Assembly: GCA_020718845.1 (NCBI GenBank)
Contig: DYRG01000010.1
Coordinates: 1 to 64,000 of the forward strand
DNA length: 64,000 nucleotides
Direction of reading: 5' to 3'
Source of the DNA: Thiomargarita sp.
GTDB lineage: Bacteria; Pseudomonadota; Gammaproteobacteria; Beggiatoales; Beggiatoaceae
Shown here piece after piece: positions 16,400 to 18,989 of the stretch (position 1 is the first letter of the stretch; each line of letters starts with the position of its first letter). The notes beneath the pieces are model-generated. The model saw only the letters and a program-made list of their open reading frames with translations. It was not told where the DNA came from and did not search any database. The position numbers and the translations under genes were made by a program.

Positions 16400-16446
16400 T
16401 TTTTTTAATCCTCAAAACTGTCAATATTTTTTAGAGTAAATTCATA

Positions 16447-16746
16447 ATGTTACGATTTATCAGTTGGATATTTTTAGGCTTGATCTTTATAGTGAGCGTG
16501 ATTTTCACTCTCTATAATCCGCAAACCGTCCAACTTCATTATGTTATCAACACCTTAGAAATACGCTTGGCAGTTTTGTTATTAATCATGTTTTTAGGCG
16601 GGATTACGTTAGGGATTTTGGTTAGCATTGCGTGGATTGCGAAATTACGCTATTTAAACCGTACCTTACGCAAAAATCATCAAGAAGCCGCTGAAGAAAT
16701 TACCCGCCTCAACGCACGTTTATTTCACCGCGATTCTGCTCTGTAG
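16447..16746 (+). CDS. lapA: LapA/YciS-like (DUF1049) inner-membrane protein
   Basis: 99-aa protein with two membrane segments (residues 4-22 and 40-65) and a cytoplasmic C-terminal coiled coil (residues 70-95). NPQTVQLHYV and IMFLGGITLGILVS match the DUF1049 pattern of LapA, which acts with LapB in controlling LpxC turnover and LPS assembly. In gammaproteobacteria ihfB-lapA-lapB is a standard order; here lapB is missing and the region just downstream is a recombination scar, so lapB may have been displaced. Confidence 0.85.
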   Translation: MLRFISWIFLGLIFIVSVIFTLYNPQTVQLHYVINTLEIRLAVLLLIMFLGGITLGILVSIAWIAKLRYLNRTLRKNHQEAAEEITRLNARLFHRDSAL

Positions 16747-16853
16747 GCATAAATACGACATTTTTTCATTGGCACACTAGCTTATAGTCACGTTCCTGCA
16801 TAAAATTCAAAATTATAATTTGTAACCTATTGTTTAAATTAATTTTAAACACT

Positions 16854-16943
16854 TCAATCTTCCTTTAAATCACGGCGTTCAACTGTTGTTGGATCAACGG
16901 TGATCGGGCGATAGATTTCTACGCGACAATTTTCTTCAACTTT
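16854..16943 (-). repeat. Outer copy of 90-bp rnfH 3'-end direct repeat
   Basis: It matches 17925-18014 at 83 of 90 positions, in the same orientation, with no gaps. Homology begins exactly at the rnfH stop codon and ends 30 codons upstream. The repeats bracket about 980 bp holding the integrase start and the secreted-protein gene. Confidence 0.9.
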
Positions 16944-17021
16944 ATGGATGGAATAGTGCAAACGCCGCATTAAATCGCGGGTTTCCGTCAATAGTGTTTT
17001 ACCTGATTGGGTGGTTGACAT
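16854..17021 (-). CDS. Chimeric ORF: integron-integrase N-terminus fused to RnfH C-terminus
   Basis: 55-aa open frame. Residues 1-26 (TLLTETRDLMRRLHYSIH after a short leader) look like the first helix of the SAM-like N-terminal domain of integron-type tyrosine recombinases, where L-x-x-x-R-x-x-x-R-x-x-H-Y-S is characteristic. At residue 27 it switches to KVEENCRVEIYRPITVDPTT and on to the RnfH terminus, 29 residues identical to the intact RnfH at 17925-18194. The two DNA copies differ at 7 of 90 positions, all silent. The catalytic domain of the integrase is gone. It is probably a fossil junction rather than a working gene, though the frame is intact. Confidence 0.55.
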   Translation of the reverse strand: MSTTQSGKTLLTETRDLMRRLHYSIHKVEENCRVEIYRPITVDPTTVERRDLKED

Positions 17022-17162
17022 AGTATAAAGGTAGTGATAGCATCCAAAAAAATATCTTGCTAAATATGCGCGATTACTTGCTCAATAGCAAGTTTATCAA
17101 GGCAAACTTGCCTAATTATATTTAATTGCTTTTTAGTTATTTCCAATGCAGGAGTATCAAAT

Positions 17163-17777
17163 ATGTTGCGTAAACTTTTAGTCGTTGTTTTGTTTTTGGT
17201 ATCAAGTAACTCATATGCTTTGAATCTTAGAGAAGATTCATCTTACCTTACACCATTTCTTAACCAGAAATGGTCATTTAGTAGTTCGATGAAAAGTGAA
17301 ACTATTACGTTTTCAAACTCTATAACAACCTCATCAGTAACTAATTATAAAACACTACTTGGAGTTGGTAAAAGTGATAACTCGGAATGGAAGCTCTCTT
17401 ATGACCAAAACGGTTATGATTTATATCATTCATACATAGACAGTAATAATATAGGTAGAGAAGATCACTTTAAATTTCAATATAGCGGTACTACCTCAAC
17501 AGAAGTCACTGGTACTTATTATTTGTTTTCCTTTAAATCTGTATTTGATACATCAAGAAGTGATAGTGTAATAATTACAGGGAAACTTTTAAATAGTGCA
17601 GAGCAATCTCAAACAACTCAACCGCAAGCTGGTTGCACAACTTTTTACCGTAGTTCCGATCAAACTGTTCACATTCCATGCTTGAAGTTAGAAGGTGACG
17701 ACAATGTTAATTTCAGCGTGATAATGAAACTGATAAACCAGAACCCTCTTGACTTCAGAGTTATAGAATTAAAGTAA
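17163..17777 (+). CDS. Secreted hypothetical protein (possible gene-cassette cargo)
   Basis: 204-aa protein with a clear signal peptide (MLRKLLVVVLFLVSSNSYA, cleavage about residue 19). The mature part is rich in Ser/Thr/Asn with alternating beta-type stretches and two cysteines (CTTFYRSSDQTVHIPC) likely to form a disulfide in the periplasm or outside. No family is recognised. A GCAGGAG ribosome-binding site precedes the ATG. It is divergent from the integrase fragment at 17021, the way the first cassette of an integron faces away from intI. It has its own terminator. Probably acquired DNA; function unknown. Confidence 0.7.
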   Translation: MLRKLLVVVLFLVSSNSYALNLREDSSYLTPFLNQKWSFSSSMKSETITFSNSITTSSVTNYKTLLGVGKSDNSEWKLSYDQNGYDLYHSYIDSNNIGREDHFKFQYSGTTSTEVTGTYYLFSFKSVFDTSRSDSVIITGKLLNSAEQSQTTQPQAGCTTFYRSSDQTVHIPCLKLEGDDNVNFSVIMKLINQNPLDFRVIELK

Positions 17778-17798
17778 TATTTAACTTGTCGCTCAATG

Positions 17799-17823
17799 CC
17801 GACCACTCGCCGTCGGTTTTTTT
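17799..17823 (+). terminator. Rho-independent terminator of the secreted-protein gene
   Basis: CCGAC (17799-17803) pairs with GTCGG (17812-17816), followed directly by seven T. It lies 21 bp past the stop codon. Confidence 0.65.
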
Positions 17824-17833
17824 CGGTTTGATT

Positions 17834-17867
17834 TAAGCTCACTGGCGGCGGCGGTCGCCTGAGCTTA
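17834..17867. repeat. GC-rich bulged inverted repeat
   Basis: TAAGCTCA (17834-17841) pairs with TGAGCTTA (17860-17867), then GGCG (17844-17847) with CGCC (17856-17859), leaving CT as a bulge on one arm. The GC-rich core stands out in AT-rich surroundings. A bulged hairpin next to a cassette-like gene recalls integron attC sites, but I do not find a full pair of core sites. Confidence 0.5.
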
Positions 17868-17924
17868 TCCACTCTACGCGAACTTTCTTTAGAATTATCA
17901 AATCACAACTTCTCAATTTTTCTA

Positions 17925-18014
17925 TCAATCTTCCTTTAAATCACGGCGTTCAACGGTAGTGGGATCAACGGTGATCGGACGATAGATTTCTACACGGCAG
18001 TTTTCTTCAACTTT
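17925..18014 (-). repeat. Inner copy of 90-bp rnfH 3'-end direct repeat (within rnfH)
   Basis: This is the native 3' end of rnfH. The seven differences from the outer copy (in Asn, Cys, Arg, Arg, Pro, Thr, Thr codons) are all third-position and silent. Confidence 0.9.
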
Positions 18015-18194
18015 CGCATCTAATTTGGCGATCTTTCCAAAAATCCCAACTTTTTGTTTGCTCAGATCGATTTCTGGAAATTGTTTTAATAAACCCGAAT
18101 GCTCAATGACTTCTTTCACTGTGCATTCTTCTGGCACTTCTATTTTCAACCAAACTTGTTTCGTGGGTAACGCATACGCAATGCCGACTTTCAT
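17925..18194 (-). CDS. rnfH: RnfH family protein (UPF0125)
   Basis: 89-aa beta-grasp (ubiquitin-like) protein: MKVGIAYALPTKQVWLKIEVPEECTV at the start, VKEVIEHSGLL, and KVGIFGKIAKLD followed by RVEIYRPITVDP, the family signature. RnfH is encoded near rnf operons in some bacteria, and near smpB and ratA in E. coli; its molecular role is unsettled. It lies downstream of rnfE on the same strand, separated by 123 bp that carry two palindromic elements. Its last 90 bp are duplicated at 16854-16943. Confidence 0.88.
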   Translation of the reverse strand: MKVGIAYALPTKQVWLKIEVPEECTVKEVIEHSGLLKQFPEIDLSKQKVGIFGKIAKLDAKVEENCRVEIYRPITVDPTTVERRDLKED

Positions 18195-18231
18195 TTCATT
18201 TTTCCTCTCTTATTTTATTTCATCTCTTTCT

Positions 18232-18264
18232 AAACCTGCAAGGTTTTTGAAACCTTGTAGGTTT
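18232..18264. repeat. Long REP-like hairpin between rnfE and rnfH
   Basis: AAACCTGCAAGGTTT (18232-18246) and AAACCTTGTAGGTTT (18250-18264) pair over 15 bp with one G-T pair and a 3-nt loop. It resembles the AACCT-GCAAGG-TTT palindromes that I recall as abundant in filamentous sulfur bacteria and cyanobacteria. It may also terminate rnfE transcription. Confidence 0.6.
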
Positions 18265-18288
18265 TTAGTTGAAATCCCTTTCTTTTCT

Positions 18289-18312
18289 CGTTCCCACGAT
18301 CGATCGTGAACA
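18289..18312. repeat. CGATCG-centred palindrome near the rnfE stop
   Basis: CACGATCGATCGTG (18295-18308) is a perfect 14-bp palindrome, extended by GTTC and GAAC flanks with one bulged C. It shares the GTTCCCAC edge with the palindrome at 7444-7471. Confidence 0.5.
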
Positions 18313-18317
18313 AGAAA

Positions 18318-18989
18318 TTATGCAGCAACAGTTTCAGAAGATATTGCAGCGGCTTTTTGTTTTGCTCGATTATCCAATAAGCGTTTGCCAACGATTAGAA
18401 ATCCCATTGCAACAAATCCACCGGGAGGAAGTATCATTAAAAGCACGCCTTTGTAATGTGGAATAATGGTCATTTCTAAAAAAGCGAAGTTTTGACCTAA
18501 CAAAAGTGAAGCACCAGAAAACAATGTTCCACTGCCAATAATTTCTCGAATTCCACCAAGCAAAACTAATCCTAAAGTAAAGCCAATTCCCATAAATAAA
18601 CCATCAACCGCTGACGGGAAAACGGGGTTTTGTGAGGCAAAAGATTCGGCGCGTGCTAACACTGCACAATTCACCACAATTAATGGAATGAACAATCCTA
18701 AAACTTTATATAATTCATGGATATACGCATTCATACCCATATCAACTAAGGTAACAATCGTTGCAATTAAAACAATAAAAGCTGGAATGCGCACTTCACT
18801 TGGAATAAAAGAACGCACTAAAGAAATTGCAACATTGGATGCGATAAGAACGGCAGTCGTTGCTAACCCCATTCCTAAGCCGTTAGTGGCGGTACTTGTG
18901 ACTGCTAATAAAGGGCATAATGCAATATTTTGGGCGAGAACAACATTATTTCCCCATAAACCTTCTGAAATGATTTGACGGTAATTCAT
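18318..18989 (-). CDS. rnfE: RNF complex subunit E
   Basis: 223-aa integral membrane protein with about six membrane segments, part of the ion-translocating ferredoxin:NAD oxidoreductase (RNF). N-terminal EGLWGNNVVLAQNIALCPLLAVTSTATNGLGMGLAT with the conserved Cys, and VNCAVLARAESFAS, match RnfE/RsxE; together with RnfA it holds the intramembrane Fe-S cluster. It is the fifth gene of the rnfB-C-D-G-E run. The 5-bp gap to rnfG indicates one operon. Confidence 0.96.
   Translation of the reverse strand: MNYRQIISEGLWGNNVVLAQNIALCPLLAVTSTATNGLGMGLATTAVLIASNVAISLVRSFIPSEVRIPAFIVLIATIVTLVDMGMNAYIHELYKVLGLFIPLIVVNCAVLARAESFASQNPVFPSAVDGLFMGIGFTLGLVLLGGIREIIGSGTLFSGASLLLGQNFAFLEMTIIPHYKGVLLMILPPGGFVAMGFLIVGKRLLDNRAKQKAAAISSETVAA

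Follow-up and report, generated by a model that had tools for sequence, protein, structure and literature searches.

The integron integrase joins cassettes at attI. In one survey, intI pseudogenes made up about one third of intI genes (PMC2426708), and attC clusters that lack intI have been proposed to arise, among other ways, when a deletion or rearrangement removes the integrase (PMC8618304). Insertions of ~1 kb through one-sided homology with an illegitimate join are documented as well; when this was tested in E. coli, target duplications, not deletions, were the predominant outcome, and microhomology at the junctions left by such homology-facilitated illegitimate recombination (HFIR) was usually 3-10 bp (PMC3240628). 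Here we describe a locus in a stretch of 64,000 nucleotides of Thiomargarita sp. DNA (the window) that, judged from its sequence, is a decayed chromosomal integron remnant in which intI has been lost past codon 26, one cassette is left and attC is truncated.

At the center of the locus, a 55-codon frame (16854-17021, minus strand) joins codons 1-26 of intI in frame to codons 61-89 of rnfH, giving a 55-residue product that reads MSTTQSGKTLLTETRDLMRRLHYSIH followed by KVEENCRVEIYRPITVDPTTVERRDLKED. As the original prediction had proposed, the first 26 residues look like the start of an integron integrase. An alignment of hybrid residues 1-32 with MSTTQSDKTLLSETRDLMRRLHYSIHTERAYC from G029 and the corresponding G004 and G013 sequences (69-78% over 32 aligned residues) shows similarity that stops at residue 26, where RnfH starts. 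The last 29 residues (codons 27-55) are identical to RnfH 61-89, again as proposed, and the Pfam Ub-RnfH match covers residues 26-49. An NCBIfam search with the 26-residue N-terminus alone gave no match since the query is too short, and DNA comparison was needed. In that comparison, the intI 5′ end (16944-17021, minus strand) proved 82-87% identical to the intI starts of three genomes of the host's family, and the same range holds for 16944-17106, which takes in the intI start, a Pc-like promoter and the attI region (G004:C134, G029:C1 and G018:C23; E 1e-49 to 2e-34). The G029 match sits at the start of a near full-length integron integrase gene recognized by TIGR02249, with the profile interrupted (positions 2-213, then 275-315). 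Matches of this strength in three genomes, one of them with an adjoining TIGR02249 IntI, are not chance, and by this comparison the 26 codons begin an integron integrase of Beggiatoaceae type. Beyond codon 26 nothing remains of the gene, and profile searches with TIGR02249 and PF13495 found no IntI elsewhere in the host's own genome.

The promoter, TTGACA-17-TAGCAT with a TG before the -10 (17015-17043, plus strand), overlaps the intI start codon and faces the cassette, and its hexamers and spacing are conserved in G004, G029 and G018. Alignment to the interval between intI and the cassette in these three genomes places the attI region at approximately 17044-17130 (plus strand); it tracks the relatives' interval and appears internally shortened. 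An integron is defined by a functional tyrosine recombinase intI, together with attI beside intI and Pc directed towards the cassettes. The latter two appear to be present here, given the 82-87% identity and the conserved promoter, and of intI there are codons 1-26 only; the integrase at this locus cannot work. The intI genes of the three relatives are likewise broken (G029:C1:325308-326080, L086; G004:C134:4930-5305, L085; G018:C23:93818, L087), either by internal deletions or with the start alone left, so decay of the integrase appears to be common in the host's family.

The cassette gene (17163-17777, plus strand) is an open reading frame for a secreted protein of 204 residues, and it is divergent from the integrase start (hybrid frame 16854-17021, minus strand), which bears out the geometry first noticed. 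Residues 148-204 are like the C-termini of secreted proteins in relatives, the C-terminal ~50 residues recurring at the ends of secreted proteins of ~280-315 residues in G001, G017 and G036. The module, CTxxYRSxDGTxHIPC...FxVFELK, is C-terminal and common to otherwise unlike secreted proteins of the family (17163-17777; L218, L219, L220 and L221). A RIP identity for the cassette protein was rejected as chance, the Pfam match (E 0.007) being below the cut-off and unsupported by NCBIfam or PDB sequences. Structure prediction from the single sequence gave a pLDDT of 34, and searches of phage records, plasmid records and viral contigs turned up nothing related to the locus, the hybrid frame or the cassette protein.

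Directly after the cassette gene comes an attC-like site (17782-17867, plus strand) that matches sites in G004, G013, G029, G031 and G018 (E 4e-20 to 1e-5). The repeated sites in these relatives mostly end ...AGCTYAGGCGTTRRRY, and the window's site ends at AGCTTA, cut off before the R′ box (GTTRRRY). Its bottom strand is predicted to form a hairpin (z -2.7). Over nine sites, 92% of the stem cells are paired and seven are double-changed, values that are favored because the structure was drawn from the same sequences. Set against the R″-L″-L′-R′ order of an attC, R″ and the stem are present, with covariation over the nine sites, and the R′ box is missing. An Rfam search of 16400-18500 returned nothing meaningful. 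Between the truncated site and the rnfH stop lies a 57-bp spacer (17868-17924, minus strand) with no match elsewhere, and blastn with the attC-like site found no second attC in the host's own genome. Since neither IntI nor a second attC was matched in a genome that is 99.97% complete, we read the locus as an integron remnant. This upholds one half of the original prediction, that of a collapsed integron, in the form of the intI start, attI, the cassette and the attC-like site. The cassette gene may still work under its promoter. With its parts and truncations read as a remnant, the locus would be a case of ordinary genome decay, in which the element is of a known kind and the scar is unusual.

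That scar involves rnfH. The intact gene, the final one of the rnf operon (17925-18194, minus strand; Pfam Ub-RnfH E 4e-34; NCBIfam NF002490), lies 0.9 kb away on the same strand, and its 3′ end, codons 61-89 plus the stop, is present a second time at 16854-16943 (minus strand; 92% identical to 17925-18014). Both copies of this 90-bp repeat begin at the stop codon, as first described. The other half of the original prediction, in which an integron integrase or other tyrosine recombinase joined at or captured the rnfH 3′ end through an attachment or crossover site there, did not hold up. A duplicated gene 3′ end with direct-repeat flanks does recall the elements whose integration sites are gene 3′ ends, and the junction adjoins an intI start. 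However, the join falls within intI, after codon 26 and ~100 bp beyond the promoter and attI, away from the attI/cassette crossover. Moreover, the intI/rnfH junction shares ~1 bp and carries no GTTRRRY-type core, no attC-like match was found at rnfH, and both ends of the element are truncations rather than recombination-site ends. We rejected integrase capture on the position of the join and the lack of an attC-like match at rnfH, and we consider it very improbable. In G029, intI and rnfH lie half a megabase from each other (325 kb vs 862 kb), and in G004 they are on separate contigs. The locus carries a caution, that a recombinase fragment fused to the end of a host gene need not signal site-specific capture.

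On the far side of the second rnfH end, the genome is also disrupted. In nine of the ten same-family genomes with a lapA match, lapA is directly followed by lapB, G008 being the exception. Here, lapA (16447-16746, plus strand; Pfam LapA_dom) lacks this usual neighbor, which was found at G000:C80:10634-11794 of the host's genome (PF18073 and an open reading frame). Between lapA and the rnfH end are the left ~71 bp of a ~108-bp MITE-like repeat (16783-16853, plus strand; terminal inverted repeats TATAGTCGCG...). The repeat is dispersed, and ~5-7 other copies in the genome run on past the truncation point, continuing AAAAATACAATCATTTTAT..., while the window copy stops at 16853, the border of the rnfH copy. 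A full copy with inverted ends is found at G000:C109:1781-1889, and further copies at G000:C111:1470, G000:C25:25861, G000:C107:257-342 and G000:C98:38860-38931. Because lapA and lapB are separated and the repeat is cut exactly at the rnfH copy, the locus is, on this arrangement, a rearrangement breakpoint. Downstream of rnfH, gene content is not conserved among relatives, and the comparison did not help to reconstruct the ancestral junction. On the other side, immediately upstream of rnfH, a stretch at 18220-18290 of the window (CTTTCTAAACCTGCAAGGTTTTTGAAACCTTGTAGGTTT) recurs in many relatives' genomes (L034, L045, L048, L049 and others) and is probably a dispersed repeat.

To account for the two rnfH ends, the differences between them are informative. 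The 90-bp copies differ at seven positions, all of them synonymous third positions, and the encoded protein is identical. The chance of seven out of seven synonymous differences is ~0.0025 with one copy drifting freely and ~1e-4 with both. Since this outcome is improbable under free drift, it suggests that the two ends are alleles, each of which evolved within a working gene before the two were united at this locus, although seven differences in 90 bp are a small sample. Of 46 other rnfH genes, 27 were nearer to the left copy and 12 nearer to the right, relatives not being independent of one another, and the comparison gave no sign as to which end is resident.

The same synonymy could be read as selection on the hybrid itself, that is, as a functional small protein of 55 residues whose C-terminal 29 residues are unaltered despite seven DNA differences, whose frame is open and which keeps the start codon of intI itself. 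Against this, the RnfH fold is only partly present, the ribosome-binding sequence is weak when judged by eye, no homologous hybrid was found across 58 genomes or in viral contigs, and the two-allele reading accounts for the synonymy more simply. We find a retained functional protein very doubtful, and we give marginally less credence still to the idea that the hybrid is translated and under selection, for example, as a small regulatory protein that combines the start signals of the integrase with the tail of RnfH. No relative carries the fusion as a conserved gene, and residues 1-26 matched integron integrases, so neither result that might have overturned the original prediction was obtained. 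Most likely, the hybrid frame is a non-functional scar of rearrangement rather than a recombinase put to a new use; that it is in frame would be a one-in-three accident.

The main rival to recombination between strains is local templated copying, whereby a template switch during repair of a break, either at lapA/lapB or within the integron, copied 90 bp of the nearby rnfH into the junction, with divergence of the copies afterwards. One such event could join the repeat, the 90-bp patch and intI, the junctions are blunt or share ~1 bp, and the source is just 1 kb off. Yet all seven changes are synonymous and fall at third positions (P ~0.003 for a freely drifting patch), and the end of the patch exactly at the stop codon would be chance. 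We therefore regard local copying as possible but unlikely. An assembly artefact from mixed strains would explain two rnfH alleles, and the genome is a draft of 123 contigs; the junctions share ~1 bp, too short an overlap to be merged in assembly, and with completeness at 99.97% and contamination at 0.22%, an artefact is improbable.

We hold, with somewhat better than even confidence, that this chromosome acquired from a related strain ~1 kb of rnfH DNA that carried the integron, either through two crossovers, one homologous and the other illegitimate, or through one alone. The resident chromosome would have had the order lapA, truncated repeat, rnfH, and the donor DNA that of rnfH followed by the integron fragment. 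In the first route, a homologous crossover in rnf would be paired with an illegitimate join of intI codon 26 to codon 61 of the resident rnfH; in the second, a donor circle would have come in by a single crossover in rnfH. Either way, the donor 3′ end would now complete rnfH, and the resident 90-bp end would be left over. The insert between the direct repeats measures 981 bp, which is the form that a single crossover leaves. ComEC is present in the genome, so DNA uptake is possible. The genomes searched include none of the same genus, and the resident and donor arrangements are not among them. The recombination account needs further events for the truncation of attC and for the junction of the repeat with rnfH. 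If it is right, the locus preserves, next to the rnf operon, a trace of recombination with a close relative.

Compared with known systems, the locus is close in its parts to a pseudo-integron, a sedentary chromosomal integron with an intI pseudogene, with which it shares an intI start, a Pc-like promoter, attI, a cassette and an attC-like site. In contrast, intI here is 26 codons long, the cassette is single, attC is without R′, and the whole is set between two rnfH 3′ ends. The locus illustrates how a chromosomal integron may shrink to a promoter with one fixed cassette. Like a CALIN, a cluster of attC sites lacking integron-integrase, it has a cassette and attC without a usable intI. A CALIN comprises at least two attC sites without intI, whereas this genome has one attC-like site, with the intI start and attI region still there. 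The duplication of a gene 3′ end around foreign DNA recalls integrative elements of the attB/attP type, in which the integrase is intact and the end cores are identical, but here there is no intact integrase and no defined att core, the repeats are 92% identical, and the insert ends inside intI. Lastly, the ~1-kb insert, the homology of one side to a resident gene and the partial direct duplication resemble an HFIR or single-crossover scar (PMC3240628), unlike which the microhomology is ~1 bp, shorter than usual, and the donor strain is known only by inference.
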